Source: Ferrithrix thermotolerans DSM 19514 (GTDB taxonomy: Bacteria; Actinomycetota; Acidimicrobiia; Acidimicrobiales; Acidimicrobiaceae). From it: DNA of 39,936 nt. Of the stretch, positions 1-11,831 are shown piece by piece. Under the pieces are notes generated by a model that was not told the origin of the DNA, ran no database searches, and worked only from the letters and a program-made list of their open reading frames with translations. Location: contig NZ_FQUL01000021.1 of the NCBI RefSeq assembly GCF_900128965.1, positions 1 through 39,936 on the forward strand, given 5' to 3'. Within the stretch, counting starts at the first letter, position 1, and each line of letters starts with the position of its first letter. Made by a program: the position numbers and the translations under genes.

Positions 1-1842
1 TTACTTTACAAAGTACCAGGTCTCAGGCGTAATGTTAGCATATGGGTTTTGTGTTACGCCCTTGAGGTTGCTTTGGATCTCCGACAGCTGGAAAGGTGGG
101 TTTGGCTGATAGAAGACTGGCAACTGCTGCACCATGTAGTCCTGGTACTGGTTGAACACCGAGTTGAACTGCGATGCTGGAGCTGTATGAGTCTCGTTTA
201 TCAACTTATCCGCCGTTGGATCGTTGTAACTTCCAAAGTTAGAGCCAGCGGTAGATGAGAAGATCTCACCTCCGGTTGGAGCGTAGTCTGGAGCATATAC
301 CCATCCACCGGCCCAGTTCTCCATCTGCCAGGAGGTAGAGGTGGGGCTAGCGTTTGAGATTACCTGATTGAATGGTGCTTGAGATAGGTTTATGGTGATA
401 CCTACCTGAGCTGCGGCTGACTTTAGAGCCTGCATCTCCTGGCTGACCGATGAGAGCCCGGAGGCGTACTGCAGGTTGAAGGTCAACGGAGTGTTGGCTG
501 CGATTCCCGCTCCACACTCATTTGCCGCTGTACCAGGGCGTACACATACCGTGACTCCATTTGGCTTTACATCCCATCCATGAGAAGTTAGAAGTGACTT
601 AGCGGCAGAGATACTATATGGGTACATCCCCGTCTTTGACAGAGAGTCAGCGAATGGGTTTGCAATGGCTGTTGGGACAGGGCTGTAGGTTGGAACACCT
701 AGTCCGTGTAGGAAGCTCTGGATCCACTGTTGCTGATCGATCAGGTGCTGAAACGCCTGACGGAAGTAGAGCTGCTTGAAGATCGGTCCTGCGGTTGGGT
801 TGTTGAAGTTTTCCACCCAGTAGTTGAATCCAAAGAGGTTCCATGGCTGTAAGGTGTAGCCCTCCTGTGCAAGGACGCTTTTTTGTGCTAGGTCGCTTAC
901 AGGTATGTATCCGTATGTGAGTCCCTTTGCCCTAAGCACGTTGAACTCGGCTGAGTCAGAGGTGAAGGGTAGCTCTACGAACTCTGACAGGGTCGGCTTT
1001 ACGGGTCCTCCATAGGTTGGATTAGGCACAAATACCGCTTTGCCTTGGGTGGTAAAGCTCTTTAGCTTCCAAGGACCATCCACGATCGACCAGATTGGGC
1101 TGGTTGCATAGGTTGAGAGATCACCGGCTTGGGTGTTTAAGAAGTTGTAAACAGCCGTGGCACCGCTTGTGGTCTGATCAGGAAGTGACGACACAGGGGT
1201 TGACGCCGTTGGAGAGGGCGCTGACAGAGAGGTCTTGTCCCAAGCAAGGGGAAGCGGTGTTATCTGAGAGAGTTCGTTGTAGGTGAACCAGGTTGGGTTG
1301 TAACTCTTGTCCAGCTGGAACACCACCTGATACTTAGATGTAGCCGTGTAAGAGGTGATGTTGTCAGGGAATGCACCTGGAACATAAGCAGCCCAGTTTG
1401 CTCTATTAGCCTTTACAAGGTTCATCCAAAAGATTACGTCCTGGGCATCCACAGGCTCCCCGTCAGACCACTTGTAGTTTTGGTTCAGATCGACTGTCAC
1501 GGTCTGGTTGTTGTTCGAGAACACCGGTGGCTTCGCCAGGCTGTACTGGTAGTTGATCTCAGCGTTTGAGCCGACTCCAAACCAGTAAAGCGGTCTATAC
1601 ATGAGCTCTTGGAACAGGCTCAAATTTGAAGTAGAGAAGTTCGTTCCCGGAGTAAGGGGGAATATGTAGTTAGGGTTAGCGCCAGGACCCTCAGCAAATG
1701 TGGCGACCCCTCCTTGAACCTTGGTCGTTCCCGAGCTGCTAGACGACGAAGCCGACGACCCAGAGCCACAAGCAGCCAAAGTTATAGCTGCCACTGTGGT
1801 TGCAATTACGGCGCTGCTTCTGCGCCTTATCCTTTTCTTCAT
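1..1842 (-). CDS. ABC transporter substrate-binding lipoprotein (family 5, peptide/nickel type)
   Basis: This is a 613-residue extracytoplasmic solute receptor of the SBP_bac_5 (DppA/OppA-like) family, expected to be lipid-anchored on the outer face of the membrane and to deliver peptides or similar solutes to an ABC permease. The N-terminus has a basic segment, a hydrophobic stretch and a lipobox LAAC at residues 22-25, followed by a Ser-rich linker. Family-typical stretches include FSDGEP-like KWSDGEPVDAQDVIFW and the region around FRQAFQHLIDQQQW. The length is normal for the family and the gene is complete, with its stop codon at the very edge of the window, so permease genes could lie just outside. 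The ATG start at 1842 follows a GGGGAGG sequence with long (about 12 nt) spacing. The substrate cannot be told from sequence alone. Confidence 0.9.
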   Translation of the reverse strand: MKKRIRRRSSAVIATTVAAITLAACGSGSSASSSSSSGTTKVQGGVATFAEGPGANPNYIFPLTPGTNFSTSNLSLFQELMYRPLYWFGVGSNAEINYQYSLAKPPVFSNNNQTVTVDLNQNYKWSDGEPVDAQDVIFWMNLVKANRANWAAYVPGAFPDNITSYTATSKYQVVFQLDKSYNPTWFTYNELSQITPLPLAWDKTSLSAPSPTASTPVSSLPDQTTSGATAVYNFLNTQAGDLSTYATSPIWSIVDGPWKLKSFTTQGKAVFVPNPTYGGPVKPTLSEFVELPFTSDSAEFNVLRAKGLTYGYIPVSDLAQKSVLAQEGYTLQPWNLFGFNYWVENFNNPTAGPIFKQLYFRQAFQHLIDQQQWIQSFLHGLGVPTYSPVPTAIANPFADSLSKTGMYPYSISAAKSLLTSHGWDVKPNGVTVCVRPGTAANECGAGIAANTPLTFNLQYASGLSSVSQEMQALKSAAAQVGITINLSQAPFNQVISNASPTSTSWQMENWAGGWVYAPDYAPTGGEIFSSTAGSNFGSYNDPTADKLINETHTAPASQFNSVFNQYQDYMVQQLPVFYQPNPPFQLSEIQSNLKGVTQNPYANITPETWYFVK

Positions 1843-2270
1843 TTTTTCCAGCTACCTCCCCAGGTAAGTGTGGTAAACAACAAGTGTCACATTTGTGAAC
1901 GTAAGAGATGATACATCGAATCTCAAAATATGTTGTAAGCACGGAGAGAATTTATACAGCATTGTCATAAAGTCTTTTTTCACTGGCACTACCACATACT
2001 GTATACATACATATCTATCTGCTCTTATGTCTTCAAATAGCGATTTTCAGAAAAGCTTTTGGTTACATCAAGCTGAAAATAGGCTGAGAAGTAACCACCT
2101 TGAGTATTCTTGGCGTCGTCGAAATCTATAAGTCACTCGATAAACCAACTTATTTCTTAGCTAATACTCAGGAACAAAGACCACGATGGAAGACGACAAC
2201 AACAAGTGGTAACACACTATCCTCCCACACGCCGCCGACGGATACATCCCCGTCGGCGGCTTCTATCTTC
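1843..2270. other. intergenic region upstream of the substrate-binding protein gene
   Basis: No convincing gene is seen in this 428-base gap. It should contain the minus-strand promoter of the substrate-binding protein gene. It holds a strong hairpin close to the diguanylate cyclase stop (2231-2260), a small TCACA-N2-TGTGA inverted repeat at 1887-1898 and a 5-bp hairpin around the Shine-Dalgarno at 1853-1866. The short open frames here have no recognisable content. Confidence 0.5.
2231..2260 (-). terminator. GC-rich hairpin, candidate terminator after the GGDEF gene
   Basis: A perfect 11-bp inverted repeat, GCCGCCGACGG and CCGTCGGCGGC, is separated by an 8-nt loop. It lies 10 bases beyond the stop of the minus-strand diguanylate cyclase gene. 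There is no clear T-tract on the minus strand, so termination may be weak or factor-assisted. The structure is seen directly, but its role is inferred from position. Confidence 0.6.
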
Positions 2271-4249: not shown

Positions 4250-4768
4250 TTACTCTATACGTCTTAGCTCACGTTTGTACCTGGCTGCATTTTCAACGTA
4301 GAGTTGAACGGCCTCTTTGAACTGTCCCTCCGTAACTTTATTCTGGAAGATCTTAGCTGGAACCCCTAGGGCCATTGAGTAGCTAGGTACCAAGGTACCG
4401 TTAGTCACGACAGCGTTCGCTCCAACAAGCGAGTGGCTTTCGCACAGTACCTCATGCAGTACGATCGAACCCGATCCGATCAAGACATCACTTTCTATTC
4501 GACATCCTTCCAAATGGACGATATGACCTACCACGCAGCGGGATCCAACCAAAGTGGCTAGTTCTGCGGTCGCATGGATGACTGTTCCATCCTGAATCGA
4601 TGTCTCTGAACCGATCTCGATGTGTCCATAGTCTCCTCTCAGAACAGCCTGTGGCCAGATGCTTGCGTATTCACCGATCGTGACATCGCCGATTACGGTT
4701 GCGTCGGGGTGCACAAAGGCACTTGTATGAATCTTGGGCTTTAGATCACCTAATGCATATATAGCCAT
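4250..4768 (-). CDS. gamma-carbonic-anhydrase-like hexapeptide-repeat protein
   Basis: This 172-residue left-handed beta-helix protein is of the YrdA/PaaY/gamma-carbonic anhydrase family, normally a zinc- or iron-binding trimer that hydrates CO2 or acts on thioesters. Hexapeptide repeats run from about residue 20 to 130 (IGDVTIG, IGSETSIQDGTVIH, and so on). His65 (VIHA) and His82 (GH) match the first two metal ligands. The third ligand, normally His in a GHxxxxHGC arrangement, is Glu87 here (GHIVHLEGC), with a His at residue 85 instead. Catalytic activity is therefore uncertain. The ATG start has no Shine-Dalgarno but has a TAACCT -10-like box seven bases upstream, suggesting a leaderless mRNA. 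Confidence 0.88.
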   Translation of the reverse strand: MAIYALGDLKPKIHTSAFVHPDATVIGDVTIGEYASIWPQAVLRGDYGHIEIGSETSIQDGTVIHATAELATLVGSRCVVGHIVHLEGCRIESDVLIGSGSIVLHEVLCESHSLVGANAVVTNGTLVPSYSMALGVPAKIFQNKVTEGQFKEAVQLYVENAARYKRELRRIE

Positions 4769-6164: not shown

Positions 6165-6911
6165 TTACGAAAGTAGATCAAGCTCTCTCCAAAGACTTAG
6201 AAAGTTTTGCGCAACCGTCGATCTGGGATGTGCTGTGACAGTGGGAATGCGCTCAAGCGCCATATTTTCTATAAGGGAAGACCTCCGAATTACGCTTCTC
6301 GTAAGGTTCAGAGCTGTGATCTTCCTTAGATCCTCGATTAACTCAAGGTGTCTCTTTGATCTTGTCTCTACCATCTGTAAGGTAGTGCGATGAGGTGCAT
6401 TGGATCGATATTGGTCTCTAACGTGCGTCAGGTACTCAATAGTTGCTCGAAGCGCAAGGGGAGATACCGTAGTTACCATAAGGGTGAGGTCGGTGGCAAG
6501 AAGCTGAAACTTCAGTACGTCATCAGCTGTGGGAGGGGAGTCGATTACGACTAGGTCGAAGTCGTCATCGATGGATGAAAGAGCCTTGGAGACTCTTATT
6601 TCTAAGGAATCTATCTCCTTTAAGTCTGAGGAGAAAAACCTCGTACGGTCGTTGAATGGAAGGATGTAGAGACGGTCAACATTCGTCGCCCTAAGTGGCC
6701 TTAGAAGGTTCGGCTTTTTCTTCTGTAGTTCCTCGCCAAGACCGGCGCCTTCTAAGTGATCGTGATGAAGGAGAAAGGAGGACGCGCCTTGTGGATCTAG
6801 GTCGATCAGGAGAACCCTCCAGCCATCGGCTGCGGCGACAGCGCCAAGGTTCACGGCGGTTGAGGTCTTCCCGACTCCTCCTTTGAGGCTGTAACAGTTC
6901 AGGACCTTCAT
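6165..6911 (-). CDS. ParA/MinD-type P-loop ATPase
   Basis: This 248-residue ParA-superfamily ATPase belongs to the group that positions DNA or protein cargo by ATP-dependent dimerisation on the nucleoid or membrane. The deviant Walker A is KGGVGKTST (residues 10-18, with both signature and catalytic lysines), the A' motif is LLIDLDPQG (34-42), and Walker B is VVIDSPP (121-127). It has no N-terminal helix-turn-helix, so it is a stand-alone small ParA. No parB is nearby. I start it at the ATG at 6911; a longer frame to 6995 runs into the upstream CYTH-CHAD gene and adds residues unlike the family. The start lies five bases after the CYTH-CHAD stop, indicating one transcript and a probable functional link with a polyphosphate-binding protein. 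Confidence 0.9.
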   Translation of the reverse strand: MKVLNCYSLKGGVGKTSTAVNLGAVAAADGWRVLLIDLDPQGASSFLLHHDHLEGAGLGEELQKKKPNLLRPLRATNVDRLYILPFNDRTRFFSSDLKEIDSLEIRVSKALSSIDDDFDLVVIDSPPTADDVLKFQLLATDLTLMVTTVSPLALRATIEYLTHVRDQYRSNAPHRTTLQMVETRSKRHLELIEDLRKITALNLTRSVIRRSSLIENMALERIPTVTAHPRSTVAQNFLSLWRELDLLS

Positions 6912-6916
6912 TTGCG

Positions 6917-8476
6917 CTATCCAATCTTCTTGAGTGTTTGGCGTAGTCTGTTGACCGGGGTCTCTTTCCCAGGGTCTATAAGAAGCTGAGAGCAAGAGGT
7001 AAAGGATCTGTCTCTTTCTTGCGACAACTCCTCTAACAGACCATGTTCATAGGTTAGAGAGCGGCACTTTGCAAGGATTTGAATCGTGACCTCTTTGTCC
7101 TGGAACTCACCCAAGCGATCCTGGATAATACGTAGCTCATCTAGAGCGCGACCAAAGAGCTTCGCATCGATCAGAGATTCAAAGAGCTCGAGGGTGTATC
7201 TGAGGTTCTTGGCTTGTTTTCTCCACCTGTGCATCTGCTCATGGGTCATAGACTTCTTTGTGACCCTGGCTTGGTGCAAGAATTCACGGGAAGCCCCCTT
7301 GATGGCGATCTTTGTAAACTCCTCCATCGATAGATGTAACGGGTTAGACCTTATGTCGCCCGTCAGCCGCAAATAAAGGGTTGTCCAACTCTTCGCAATC
7401 TCCTTTATGACCATCTCGTCTAACGCTACTTCAAGACCCTTATGGGCAAGCGCCCTTCTTTCCACTAGCTCTTCTAAAAGAGCGCTGTGGCTCGAGTCTC
7501 TAGCCAACCTTTGACCAACGGTCGATGAGAGCAGCACGTCGAGATCTCGTTGTTCCCCACATATTCTCTGAAACTCTTTGAGCGTAAACAAGATGGAGGA
7601 TCTGGCGCTCTTCGTCTTGTGGCTTGCGTTTTTGGGGATTAGGTAGTGCGTAAGCTGGGTTGCCACGCGCATTCTACGGATATCAACCCTAAGATCGTGA
7701 CAGAACTCGAGGTCCAGGTCCTTAGCAGCACCGTTCGTATTGAGTTCCATGCGGCGGATGAGCCCGGTGATCTTTGAGTTGAGTTTTACGAGGGGATCAT
7801 CGTCCTTTGAACAACTAAGGGACAAGTAATCGGTGTAGTCAAAGCGTCGACGGGACTGCCGCCTCATAACAGACTCCCAGATGTCCCAGTTTGAGTCCGA
7901 TATAAGCCTGCCCTTTAGATGTTTTGACATTTCCATTACCATCTCTTTATGGTCTTCCCCCGGCATCACAAATATCCGTAACCACTGTTCAGGAAGACCT
8001 ACTGGAGTAACTACGTCAACCTTGGCGATTCGAAGGCCATTGGCGTCTCGGAGTTCGACTGAGTTTGTAACCGCTTCGATCGACGCCATCTTTAGTAGAG
8101 CTCTGTTCTTTGCAAGCCTGTAGAGCAAGGCTCGTATCCCATTCTCGTTGATGTTGGTAATGGGAAGGTGATCGAAGTCAGCCGGTCTGTCCAAGGTAAA
8201 TGGAGAAGGTGCCAGTCTCTTTGCGTATACAACCCCGCTGGTCTTGGTGTCTTCGACCGTTATCTCAAGCGACAAGCCGTTTTTGGCGAGGCCCCATATC
8301 TGTGTGTCGTAAAGAAGCAGCGTCACTTGGTGGCTACAGCGAGGATTCACATGAACAGATCCCACTTTGTGCAGAGATTTTACGACAAGATTTGCTAACT
8401 CTAGGTGGGTAAGTGTCTTATCTGTAGCTAGCACCCTCTCTATCTGGTTAGGAGGTGCCTCTCCGTGGGTTGCCGT
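6917..8476 (-). CDS. CYTH-CHAD domain protein (probable polyphosphate-binding), apparent ACG start
   Basis: This is a protein of about 519 residues. The N-terminal third resembles a CYTH (triphosphate tunnel) fold, with LLYDTQIWGLAKNGLSLEI matching the usual YYDTxxxxLxxxGxxLR pattern. The C-terminal half is a CHAD domain with its two conserved basic helices: CHDLRVDIRRMRV (about residues 259-270) and MHRWRKQAKNLRYTLELFE (415-433). CHAD domains are known to bind polyphosphate. The ExExK catalytic motif of CYTH enzymes is degenerate (QIERV at the very N-terminus), so triphosphatase activity is doubtful. GTG at 8434 has no correctly spaced ribosome-binding site. ACG at 8476 lies 8 nt after GGGAGG and restores the IER segment, so I prefer it. 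An in-frame stop at 8492-8494 limits the frame. The gene is followed after five bases by a parA-like gene. Confidence 0.85.
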   Translation of the reverse strand, partial: TATHGEAPPNQIERVLATDKTLTHLELANLVVKSLHKVGSVHVNPRCSHQVTLLLYDTQIWGLAKNGLSLEITVEDTKTSGVVYAKRLAPSPFTLDRPADFDHLPITNINENGIRALLYRLAKNRALLKMASIEAVTNSVELRDANGLRIAKVDVVTPVGLPEQWLRIFVMPGEDHKEMVMEMSKHLKGRLISDSNWDIWESVMRRQSRRRFDYTDYLSLSCSKDDDPLVKLNSKITGLIRRMELNTNGAAKDLDLEFCHDLRVDIRRMRVATQLTHYLIPKNASHKTKSARSSILFTLKEFQRICGEQRDLDVLLSSTVGQRLARDSSHSALLEELVERRALAHKGLEVALDEMVIKEIAKSWTTLYLRLTGDIRSNPLHLSMEEFTKIAIKGASREFLHQARVTKKSMTHEQMHRWRKQAKNLRYTLELFESLIDAKLFGRALDELRIIQDRLGEFQDKEVTIQILAKCRSLTYEHGLLEELSQERDRSFTSCSQLLIDPGKETPVNRLRQTLKKIG

Positions 8477-8599: not shown

Positions 8600-9430
8600 T
8601 TAGTAGTGGTGAACTACCGAGTTGAAGTGATCTAGTGGTCCAAAGCCATGACCTAGTGCCCAACTCTTCGACCCTGCTATTGCGCTTGTAACATAAGCCT
8701 TCGCTTCCCTTACCGCTTCCGTTAACGTAACCCCACGCGCAAGGTTGGCGGTGATAGAGGCTGAAAGGGTGCAACCTGTTCCATGGGTGTTTTTAGACTC
8801 AATTCTTGCCGCCCGAAAGGTAATGACCTGGTCACCGTCGTAAAGCACGTCAATCGCATCAGGATCACCCTCTAGATGACCGCCCTTTACAAGTACGTTG
8901 GCCGGTCCCATCTGCTTTAGCTCCTTTGCCACAGTGACGAGATCGGCGGCGTCAGATATCTTTAGCCCCACCAACTTCGATGCCTCAGGGGCGTTTGGAG
9001 TGATGAGATAGGCGTGGGGAAAGAGTAGGTCTATGTAAGCCTCGATAGCATCGCTGTCAATTAGGGGATCGCCTGAGGCGGCTACCATAACGGGATCTAC
9101 GACCAACTTGTGCAAGGTTCGATCCTTTGCTAGATTCGATACCACCCGTACGATCTCACGGGTAGCAAGCATCCCGGTCTTTGATCCGCGAATCCAAAAG
9201 TCCGATAGGACCGATCTGATCTGAGCGTCAACTAGGTCTGGATCGACAACTTTGTAGTCCTGCACCCCAACGGTGTTTTGTGCTGTAACTGCTGTGATGG
9301 CACAGGTTCCAAAGACGTGATGTGCTGCAAAGGTCTTGAGGTCGGCCTGAATCCCTGCACCGCCACCGGAGTCCGAACCGGCTATGGTCAGTGCAACTGG
9401 AGGATTGCGATGATTTGAGGTAGTATCCAA
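8600..9430 (-). CDS. thiD: hydroxymethylpyrimidine/phosphomethylpyrimidine kinase
   Basis: This is a 276-residue ribokinase-fold kinase that phosphorylates HMP and then HMP-phosphate in thiamine synthesis. The N-terminal substrate-binding motif GSDSGGGAGIQAD (about residues 18-30), the GTCAITAVTAQNTVGV block and the C-terminal anion-hole and catalytic motif KNTHGTGCTLSAS are all intact. The length is normal for ThiD without fusion to ThiE. It starts with TTG at 9430, supported by AGGAGG nine bases upstream (9440-9445). It is the last gene of the leftward thiO-thiS-thiG-thiD group but is separated from thiG by 218 bases, so it may have its own promoter. thiE and thiC are not in the window. Confidence 0.95.
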   Translation of the reverse strand: MDTTSNHRNPPVALTIAGSDSGGGAGIQADLKTFAAHHVFGTCAITAVTAQNTVGVQDYKVVDPDLVDAQIRSVLSDFWIRGSKTGMLATREIVRVVSNLAKDRTLHKLVVDPVMVAASGDPLIDSDAIEAYIDLLFPHAYLITPNAPEASKLVGLKISDAADLVTVAKELKQMGPANVLVKGGHLEGDPDAIDVLYDGDQVITFRAARIESKNTHGTGCTLSASITANLARGVTLTEAVREAKAYVTSAIAGSKSWALGHGFGPLDHFNSVVHHY

Positions 9431-9648
9431 ATTTCAAAGCCTCCTGATGTACTAGACGCCCTGCTATCCTAGCCAACTTGCTCTGTGAACCGGGCAAATA
9501 TAGATCTCACGCACACCTATTCGAAATATGCAGTACTAAATCTATAAGGGGTTCTATGTGCTCATCTTGGATAGTGGAGTTTCTTCCAACTTAGCGACGT
9601 CGTTTCGTCGTGCGCTCATAGTGCCTAATAGAACACCATGAACCTCTT

Positions 9649-10446
9649 TCATGTGAATGGTTTTCCTTCATCTGTGGTCGATGCCTGCGCCAGTCGCCGC
9701 CTTGGTATGCGTCCCGATAGATAAGAAAGTCTTCCAGCGCGAACCGCCATCGAGATGGACCTTGCCATGGACTTGGGTACTTTAGCCCTGGTGATCGCTG
9801 AAGCTGCGAGCACCGCGTCGCAGCCGAGCTCCATAGCGAACGCTGCGTCTGAGGCACATCCAATACCAGCGTCCAACACCACTGGACACTCGATGCGTTC
9901 GGCTATCAGCTCTATGTTGTGTGGATTTAAGATCCCAAGGCCAGATCCTATCGGAGAACCTAAAGGCATAACTGCGGTAGCACCAAGGTTTGCTAAGTGG
10001 CTAGCCAAGGCTGGGTCGTCGTTGGTATAGGCAAAGACGTAAAACCCTCGCTTCACAAGCTCTTCGGTAGCTCTGGCTAGCTCCAGCGGATCTGGAAGCA
10101 AGGTGTCTTGGTCACTGATTACCTCTACTTTGACAAGGTCCGTCTGTAAAGCCTCTCTACCGAGTTCTGCTGTAAGTACCGCGTCTCGTGCTCCAAAACA
10201 TCCAGCGGTGTTTGGCAAAACATGTACCGAGAGCTTTGCTAGCTCTTCGAAGATCGATCCGTCTCTAAGTGTTGGATCAAATCTTCTAATAGCAACGGTC
10301 ACCATCTCAGCTCCTGACGCTGTGATCGTCTCGGAAATAACCCTATGGGACGGAGCCCCGCCTGTGCCAAGGATCAGTCGGCTCGATAGCGTGAGGGGAC
10401 CGATCTTTAGAGCGTCTTCGTCGTTTTCTATGTAGTGTCGATTCAA
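9649..10446 (-). CDS. thiG: thiazole synthase ThiG
   Basis: This is a 265-residue TIM-barrel enzyme that forms the thiazole phosphate moiety of thiamine from deoxyxylulose phosphate, dehydroglycine and ThiS thiocarboxylate. The Schiff-base lysine lies in LVKVEVISD, followed by the LLPDP segment. The phosphate-binding loops GSPIGSGLGI and DAGIGCASDAAFAMELG are present. I start it at TTG 10446, just three bases beyond the thiS stop, because AAGGAGG (10453-10459) lies six bases upstream. The longer frame to 10515 only overlaps thiS in another frame. The gene follows thiS directly, as expected for partners in one reaction. Confidence 0.94.
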   Translation of the reverse strand: MNRHYIENDEDALKIGPLTLSSRLILGTGGAPSHRVISETITASGAEMVTVAIRRFDPTLRDGSIFEELAKLSVHVLPNTAGCFGARDAVLTAELGREALQTDLVKVEVISDQDTLLPDPLELARATEELVKRGFYVFAYTNDDPALASHLANLGATAVMPLGSPIGSGLGILNPHNIELIAERIECPVVLDAGIGCASDAAFAMELGCDAVLAASAITRAKVPKSMARSISMAVRAGRLSYLSGRIPRRRLAQASTTDEGKPFT

Positions 10447-10448
10447 AC

Positions 10449-10652
10449 CTATCCTCCTTGAAAAATAGTGACTACCTCTATGGCGTCTTGGTCTGAGAGA
10501 AAGAAGGTATCCCACTTGGATCTAGGGACGATCTCCCGGTTTACCGCAACGGCCACGCCATTGGTTGGAGCTTTGAGCTCATCTACAAGCTTGGAGATCG
10601 AGGTAGGTGCCTCGATGGTTACCACTTCGCCGTTTAAGACCACCTCTAACAA
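10449..10652 (-). CDS. thiS: sulfur carrier protein ThiS
   Basis: This 67-residue ubiquitin-like sulfur carrier ends in the essential Gly-Gly (IFQGG), which is adenylated and converted to the thiocarboxylate that donates sulfur to ThiG. The beta-grasp pattern (LNGEVVTIEAPTSISKLVDEL, then GVAVAVNREIVPRSKW) is typical. It starts with TTG at 10652, preceded by GGGAGGT with good spacing. It sits between thiO and thiG, three to four bases from each, clearly co-transcribed. The adenylyltransferase ThiF is not in the window. Confidence 0.95.
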   Translation of the reverse strand: MLEVVLNGEVVTIEAPTSISKLVDELKAPTNGVAVAVNREIVPRSKWDTFFLSDQDAIEVVTIFQGG

Positions 10653-10655
10653 CGG

Positions 10656-11831
10656 CTACCTCCCATCTTGTAGTCTTCGATAAGGGTCTAATATTTCGGT
10701 GAACCTCTGAAGTCTCACGGAAAAGTTGGCGTTCGACCTTCGTCCAATGGCCTGTACCAGCAAAGAGGCGGTGTAAGGGGCAAGTAAAAATCCGTGCCGA
10801 TAATGACCGCTATGTATATAGAGATTAGGCAGAAGCTCGCCGACGTTTGGATAGTTATCGTAGGTGCCGGGTCGATAACCACTTGAGAGTTCCACGATCT
10901 CCATCTCCCGCAACGACGGAACGCTGTAGATGGCGTCGTATAAGAGATCAAACACCCCTCCGGCCTTTGGGAGAGAGTTGTTCATCAAAGGCACTTCTTC
11001 TTGGGTCGCGCCCACCACTACCTCACCTGAGGTTCGGGGGACTATGTAGTTCCATCGCCCGTGTCTTATGGAGCGTACGCACACCGACGGTCCGATCTTT
11101 TGAGTGTCTCTGAGGCGTATTATCTCTCCACGCACGGGACGGGTTGCGACCGCACGAGCTAAGTCTTCGTCCAAAAGACCGCTTAGAACCTCCTCCGGCG
11201 AGATCATCGGGTTACAAAGAACGACCCTTTCGCCTTCAACGACGTCGAGGTTATCGAGCCTGAGTTGATACCTGCCCTGAGCTGTCCGCACAACCCTTTT
11301 TACCCTGGCCCTTACGATCCTTGCGTGACCTTCAACGATCTCGATCATACGACCTAGGACTACCCGGTTGTCTACCTGGTAGTCCTTCGGAGTGTAAAGC
11401 CCCCCAATTACCTTTGGCGAAAGGGTAGGCTCAAGGTCTAACACCTCACTTCGTCCCATTAGATGAGATTCGATTCCAAGTTCTTTATGGAAGCTTTGTA
11501 AGCGCATGAGCTCGTCAAAGTCTCCATGCTCGGTAGCGCTGAGGAGGGTGGCACGCCTTTCATAACCACAATCCAGCGAGGTATAGGACTCGAGCACTTT
11601 AACAAAGTCGTCCCAGTATTGAGCAGCCTCAATCAGCAGTTTTCCCATGAGAACTTCGCTGTAGTTGACCTCTGAGGCGGGAGCTAGCATACCTGCTGCG
11701 ACGTAAGAGGTACCACCACCGGGATCGGGGTCTACCACTATGAGATCATGTCCATGGTCGAGCAGCTCGATAGCGACAGAAAGTCCAGCTACTCCGCCGC
11801 CTACAACGATAAACTCCGAGTCACTTTCCAT
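10656..11831 (-). CDS. thiO: glycine oxidase ThiO
   Basis: This is a 391-residue FAD-dependent DAO-family oxidase that makes dehydroglycine (iminoacetate) from glycine for ThiG. The N-terminal Rossmann dinucleotide motif VVGGGVAGLSVAIEL is followed by the conserved SYVAAGMLAPASE segment. The C-terminal GYRPGT and HYRHGFLLAPYTA blocks place the FAD and active-site Arg. It is the first gene of the thiO-thiS-thiG unit. The ATG at 11831 follows AGAAGG with short spacing. No TPP riboswitch core was found upstream, so control of this unit is unclear. ThiO rather than ThiH implies an oxygen-dependent route. Confidence 0.94.
   Translation of the reverse strand: MESDSEFIVVGGGVAGLSVAIELLDHGHDLIVVDPDPGGGTSYVAAGMLAPASEVNYSEVLMGKLLIEAAQYWDDFVKVLESYTSLDCGYERRATLLSATEHGDFDELMRLQSFHKELGIESHLMGRSEVLDLEPTLSPKVIGGLYTPKDYQVDNRVVLGRMIEIVEGHARIVRARVKRVVRTAQGRYQLRLDNLDVVEGERVVLCNPMISPEEVLSGLLDEDLARAVATRPVRGEIIRLRDTQKIGPSVCVRSIRHGRWNYIVPRTSGEVVVGATQEEVPLMNNSLPKAGGVFDLLYDAIYSVPSLREMEIVELSSGYRPGTYDNYPNVGELLPNLYIHSGHYRHGFLLAPYTASLLVQAIGRRSNANFSVRLQRFTEILDPYRRLQDGR

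Follow-up and report, generated by a model that had tools for sequence, protein, structure and literature searches.

The locus analyzed in this study is a pair of genes encoding a CYTH-CHAD protein and a ParA-type ATPase in Ferrithrix thermotolerans DSM 19514, on contig NZ_FQUL01000021.1 (the window, a stretch of 39,936 nucleotides and one entire contig of the 2.49-Mb draft assembly). The positioning of cargo by ParA-type ATPases is of a known kind. In the McdAB system, a ParA-type ATPase acts with a cargo adaptor other than ParB on a cellular body, the carboxysome (PMC13052382), while the pair described here differs in both cargo and adaptor, which would be polyphosphate (polyP) and CHAD. Polyphosphate granules are spaced in Pseudomonas aeruginosa by AlgP (PMC9239181, PMC13052382), but AlgP is a histone H1-like DNA-binding protein for which the available text names no ATPase, and the whole word "ParA" is absent from the main text of that paper (PMC9239181). 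Similarly, the available sections of a 2025 review of organelle positioning name only AlgP for polyP, with no ATPase, leave the Caulobacter proteins unidentified, and ask whether the positioning of polyP granules needs energy or ATP (PMC13052382). CHAD domains are described as binding polyP and not nucleic acids (Lorenzo-Orts et al., PMC6537752); the pair shares the CHAD fold and the polyP-contact residues with CtCHAD, the CHAD domain of Chlorobaculum tepidum, and with other CHAD phosins, and the CtCHAD structure paper does not mention a ParA neighbor by the word "ParA" (PMC6537752). The closest genomic precedent, compared by description, is the folD-ppk-parA-CHAD cluster of Acidithiobacillus, which has the same two kinds of genes beside ppk (PMC10892726, PMC6416229). 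In the parts of these papers that were available, however, it is confined to one genus and set in the context of copper resistance or cyclic AMP signaling, with the ParA given no granule role and coordination with cell division functions mentioned in passing (PMC6416229). The sequence-only reading of the window had regarded the combined role as undescribed. That held for the granule role, as no ParA was proposed for polyP granules in the literature found (partial journal coverage, preprints not covered), but the adjacency itself had been noted for Acidithiobacillus. The comparisons below suggest that the pair probably positions or partitions polyP granules as a ParA-type system, with the CHAD protein as its cargo adaptor.

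Both genes lie on the minus strand. The first, at 6917..8434 with a GTG start, encodes the CYTH-like and CHAD protein of 505 amino acids, the proposed granule adaptor, and the second, at 6165..6911 with an ATG at 6911, encodes the ATPase of 248 amino acids. The CHAD stop and the ParA start are separated by a 5-bp spacer (6912..6916). The open reading frames (ORFs) and this gap confirmed an earlier description of two genes on one strand, five bases apart and with no parB; the neighbor of the ParA gene is the CHAD gene, and no parB adjoins it. Of the gene bounds given earlier, the ParA end at 6165 stood, while the CHAD start was moved from 8476 to 8434, which is the better though not a proven start because 8476 is an in-frame ACG. 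The genome contains one CHAD match in a whole-genome search and one PPK1 copy. A second ParA adjoins a ParB-like gene, recognized by eye, on contig C95, so the ParA of the window is an additional ParA of this genome. The C95 genes (573-1541 and 1474-2247, minus strand) have the appearance of a canonical chromosomal pair.

Two surveys addressed the adjacency. One covered a fixed set of 60 surrounding genomes, including that of the window. The other used four CHAD sequences as queries against public genomes and confirmed 131 loci, the best 80 of which are the named loci. A CHAD was found in 44 of the 60 genomes, and a ParA was located directly 3' of it on the same strand in 26 genomes from six families. 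The window's family accounted for 21 of these (genera g1, g3, g4, and g7) and five other families for one each. The genera g2, g5, g6, and g8 of the window's family showed no CHAD-ParA adjacency in this set, and genome G002 was undecidable, as its contig ends inside the CHAD. Among the named loci, ParA directly follows CHAD in 56 of 80 (55 resolved by coordinates, plus L115); two were undecidable, L148 at a contig end and L174 with an apparent frameshift. In place of the spacer in the window, the stop and start overlap by 4 bp at 45 of the 55 resolved junctions, where ParA starts were assigned by rule. An apparent CHAD-ParA fusion of 746 amino acids at L115 (near 9480) was rejected as an assembly gap, because the junction holds unknown bases. 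Labels of the linked loci span about eight phyla and include Actinomycetota, Gammaproteobacteria, Desulfobulbus and relatives, Chlorobi, Ignavibacteria, Acidobacteriota, Phycisphaerae, Dadabacteria, and Schekmanbacteria, although single labels may be wrong because many come from metagenome bins. Cultured examples included Thiohalocapsa halophila DSM 6210, Desulfobulbus elongatus, D. rhabdoformis, Geodermatophilus aquaeductus, and Mycolicibacterium wolinskyi, and a Candidatus Microthrix parvicella bin also carries the linked pair. The adjacency is far beyond chance in both surveys; the granule idea had been said to fall if relatives lacked the adjacency, and many relatives keep it.

The Chlorobiaceae connect the pair to a solved structure. 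A linked CHAD of this family matches PDB entries 3e0s, 6qv7, and 6qva, in which the C. tepidum domain was solved with polyP, and 39 of 41 sampled Chlorobiaceae genomes have a match to the linked CHAD. One genome matches the crystallized CtCHAD at 100%, and because residue numbers counted along its ORF agree with those published, it is almost certainly that of Chlorobaculum tepidum. In this genome the CtCHAD gene is directly followed by a ParA gene of the linked type. The pair was linked in 27 of 30 Chlorobiaceae loci inspected out of 40 matches; the remaining three (L225, L226, and L233) were unlinked, and L226 and L233 have PPK1 beside the CHAD instead.

The domain content of the 505-residue protein was established by profile and fold. 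The CHAD domain (PF05235) scored 107.6 bits against a Pfam cut-off of 25.6 over residues 224-454 (7073-7765), and no Pfam match to a CYTH domain was found in the protein. In an AlphaFold model (56 sequences; mean predicted local distance difference test score, pLDDT, of 87.1), residues 200-505 (6920..7837, minus strand) had a CHAD fold, which matched 6qv5 (Z 26.9) and 6qv7 (Z 26.4, 2.9 Å over 291 residues). Residues 7-194 (7853..8416, minus strand) were modeled as a triphosphate-tunnel or CYTH fold, with matches to human ThTPase (3bhd, Z 10.2, 3.7 Å over 162 residues) and to a class IV adenylyl cyclase (2fjt, Z 9.3). The earlier label CYTH-CHAD is thus right by the modeled fold, with a CYTH half that has no ExExK motif.

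The presence of a CYTH fold would suit a protein that is mainly an enzyme, either a triphosphatase or a polyP-regulated class IV adenylyl cyclase, with the ParA as an accessory. The Acidithiobacillus operon has been read in this way, with active-site residues said to be conserved there (PMC6416229). Yet the ExExK motif was absent from the first 80 residues in all 47 ParA-linked proteins considered (the window and 46 of the 56 linked named loci), while it occurred in one of nine unlinked proteins, and an enzyme of this sort is quite improbable for the linked pair. Since the motif is gone in all 47, the CYTH half is read as a putatively non-catalytic domain, perhaps ParA-facing or regulatory.

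The CHAD half, in contrast, would be the part that holds polyP. In CtCHAD, mutation of His253, Arg256, Arg260, Arg296, or Arg418/Tyr419 in the central cavity weakens polyP binding, and outer surfaces were mutated as well (PMC6537752); the window was compared at the central cavity. All six positions are present in the window, as H246, R249, and R253 (7676..7699), R296 (7547..7549), and R412/Y413 (7196..7201), all on the minus strand. The five basic positions were basic in 48 of 48 aligned rows, and Y413, the equivalent of Tyr419, was invariant in alignment A4. Binding of polyP by the window protein is likely on this comparison. These residues also bear on the view that the pair partitions DNA, with the CHAD protein as an odd ParB and a chromosome or plasmid as the cargo. 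ParA homology would fit such a role, as would the dependence of polyP granule position on chromosome segregation in Caulobacter (PMC13052382). The retention of the central polyP contacts, the reported binding of CHAD domains to polyP and not nucleic acids (PMC6537752), and the separate ParA with its ParB-like gene in this genome make DNA partition very improbable.

By motif, aspartates, family profile, and fold, the ATPase belongs to the ParA/MinD proteins with a deviant Walker A motif. It matched AAA_31 at 84.6 bits against a Pfam cut-off of 27, and did not reach the NCBIfam partition equivalog NF041546 (75.9 bits against a cut-off of 180). Its motif KGGVGKT (6864..6884, minus strand) carries the signature lysine K10 and K15, both found in 80 of 80 ParA rows, in which the window is counted twice; of the catalytic aspartates, D124 was invariant and D39 was present in at least 90% of the rows of alignment A5. 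McdA is not known to carry the signature lysine and differs from the window-type ParA in this respect. Soj/ParA chains scored 111-148 bits in a profile search, versus 73-79 bits for McdA chains. The AlphaFold model (pLDDT 86.8, 54 sequences) had its best matches in the Soj/ParA fold at TM scores of 0.77-0.79, and the BcsQ and FleN folds also matched. The protein is similar to the ATPase of the chromosomal ParABS system (Soj/Spo0J) in fold, deviant Walker A motif, and length, but it has no adjoining parB, falls in a separate branch, and has its RxVR DNA-binding loop replaced.

Residues for DNA binding were compared with Caulobacter ParA, in which R195 and R224 bind DNA, arginines so used by several ParAs (PMC7229837). 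Equivalents were mapped through the Soj of the same genome at a constant offset. The R195 equivalent is retained, with a basic residue in 90% of rows, and the R224 equivalent is lost. Additionally, positions 91, 185, and 221 were basic in at least 95% of rows, with a serine at 185 in the window. Because the second of the two arginines is lost, nucleoid binding by the linked ParA is plausible rather than established. This loss, together with the matching BcsQ and FleN folds and the precedent that CYTH-CHAD proteins, ygiF among them, can act enzymatically (PMC6537752), would also suit a non-positional regulator comparable to BcsQ, FleN, and other MinD-like proteins, which switches the polyP-binding protein or PPK1 by its ATP state. 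The nearest solved structures are ParA/Soj by both sequence and fold, and PPK1 occurred in the covered flanks of only seven of the 80 named loci, four of them with ParA; a regulator of this kind is considered unlikely.

The ParAs tied to CHAD form a type of their own. In a quick maximum-likelihood tree of 111 rows, with long branches among the other ParAs, a branch with a Shimodaira-Hasegawa-like approximate likelihood ratio test (SH-aLRT) value of 99 split the set into 87 CHAD-linked ParAs with two orphans on one side and 22 other ParAs on the other. The linked ParA scored 272-326 bits in ten linked genomes, where the next best ParA did not exceed 160. Of the 24 named loci not counted as linked, 22 (L148 and L174 left out) had their genomes compared, and the best ParA there scored 173.2 bits, so these genomes seem to lack the linked type, several of them being incomplete bins. 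Within the 60-genome set, a CHAD was present in all 28 genomes with the linked ParA type versus 16 of the 32 others (Fisher p 4e-6, uncorrected for kinship). For 45 pairs, the matrix of CHAD distances correlated with that of ParA distances at r 0.87, or 0.84 without the window, while the best of 999 permutations reached 0.44. A reverse search of 198 genomes of the phylum, scoring up to 13 candidates per genome and thus giving a lower bound, found at least nine hits to the linked type, five of them beside a CHAD.

The two genes could alternatively be functionally unrelated neighbors that stay linked because they are inherited as an operon or transferred jointly. Joint descent alone would produce the mirror-tree signal, and the module is patchy, with at least nine of 198 genomes in the phylum. 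However, the two genes persist across families and phyla while others change, mostly with overlapping ends, and the ParA type and CHAD co-occur in four of six cases even when apart, which renders this explanation extremely improbable.

The six genomes with the linked ParA type apart from CHAD fell into three pairs. The ParA was away from the CHAD of the same genome in G037 and G054, and it was beside an aminotransferase gene with the CHAD on another contig in G143 and G158. In G236 and G321, the ParA hits were weak (198-210 bits) and the genome had no CHAD. Such ParAs near the linked type, at L243 (1477-2232) and L244 (1498-2238) in genomes without CHAD, have dapB nearby and are perhaps a sister group with another cargo. 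As candidates for an alternative adaptor, the neighboring aminotransferase (G143 and G158) and the dapB, M16 peptidase, and lactamase-fold genes (G236 and G321) were considered and rejected. No second adaptor was found among the scanned neighbors, and the G143 aminotransferase showed no CHAD similarity.

Genes of polyP metabolism were found near some of the pairs. PPK1 was present in 57 of the 60 surrounding genomes, so its presence by itself says little. It lies less than 2 kb from the CHAD in G037, G045, G048, and G056, where no ParA adjoins the CHAD in question. In G044, PPK1 and the CHAD of the pair are 3.7 kb apart, and the interval contains a separate CYTH gene, PhoH, NUDIX, and a histidine phosphatase. 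In G058, a CYTH-like gene (21.9 bits, just under the cut-off) and a NUDIX gene are beside the pair, and two Chlorobiaceae named loci encode PPK1, CHAD, and ParA in this order on one strand. In the window's family, PPK1 is on another contig or more than 100 kb away. No third conserved gene emerged: among 28 upstream and 28 downstream neighbors, many of which match no Pfam family, no family matched more than two of the genes at E 1e-5. These neighbors came from the 55 resolved linked loci and were chosen with a crude rule for calling ORFs, which may pick spurious frames in GC-rich DNA. Several neighbors are shared within the window's own family.

Taken together, the comparisons support a conserved and coupled pair with a distinct ParA branch, and with ATPase motifs and central polyP-contact residues that are intact. 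The sequence-only reading had proposed a role at polyP granules, and the conserved adjacency, the PPK1, CYTH, and NUDIX genes near some pairs, the retained contacts, and the separate ParA branch all favor it. The use of CHAD as a cargo adaptor by the ParA is the simplest reading; it is inferred, as are positioning, binding of the nucleoid or DNA, direct ParA-CHAD contact, and granule movement. The CYTH-CHAD protein would coat or grip polyP through its basic CHAD channel and serve as the adaptor, the role of ParB-parS or McdB in other systems. The ATPase would bind ATP, dimerize, and bind the nucleoid, and its contact with granule-borne CHAD would lead to hydrolysis and release. The resulting ParA gradient would space the CHAD-coated granules or share them between daughters.

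Several observations weigh against this reading. A CHAD without an adjoining ParA was found in 17 of the 44 CHAD genomes near the window and at 22 of the 78 decidable named loci, from which it follows that CHAD works without ParA. Six genomes have the linked ParA type apart from CHAD, the correlation of the distance matrices may only reflect shared descent, and the R224-equivalent arginine is lost while that of R195 is kept. The CHAD of the window lacks three basic residues common in linked relatives (G380, E384, and F478 in the window), and the literature found contains no localization, ATPase, or DNA-binding data for any pair. Finally, no ParA-binding motif was conserved by eye in the N- or C-termini of the CHAD proteins among linked relatives, leaving without support the earlier suggestion that the CHAD N-terminus stimulates the ATPase. 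A basic C-terminal tail was considered as a universal ParA-binding motif and rejected, as it was common in family-f1 proteins but, by eye, not across phyla; because its codons lie close to the start of ParA, they may just supply a ribosome-binding site. K134 and Y162 (window numbering) were enriched in the ParA-linked CHADs and differ in the window itself, and no interface is claimed from them because the comparison had nine unlinked rows only.

Other genes around the pair were also noted. Just upstream, at 8600-11831 of the window, are thiamine-type genes, including a member of the HMP-P kinase family by NCBIfam, followed by two genes that we take to resemble thiG and thiO; thiamine-type gene clusters recur beside the pair within the window's family. 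Downstream, at 4253-4768, a gamma-carbonic-anhydrase-like hexapeptide protein (130.7 bits against NF050158, under the cut-off of 250) is kept in many relatives. Several family-f1 genera have genes for a metallophosphoesterase and a large AAA_27/SMC-like ATPase near the CHAD, which at L070 (6512-7831) and L077 (4229-7087) have the appearance of an SbcCD/YhaN-like repair pair.

The distribution of the pair raises the prospect of a general ATP-driven partition system for polyP granules across many phyla, including the Actinomycetota with Candidatus Microthrix, purple and green sulfur bacteria, Desulfobulbus, Acidobacteriota, and others, with CtCHAD, whose structure is the best studied for CHAD and polyP, as its unrecognized cargo adaptor; we regard the chances of this broader proposal as evenly balanced. 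The occurrence of the CHAD-ParA pair in what is almost certainly C. tepidum and in several cultured strains makes the placement and inheritance of the granules a directly testable question. The finding is relevant to Candidatus Microthrix as well, since this organism is reported to accumulate polyP (PMC5406452). If the proposed role is true, polyP granules, which would probably be a new cargo, join those moved by ParA ATPases.

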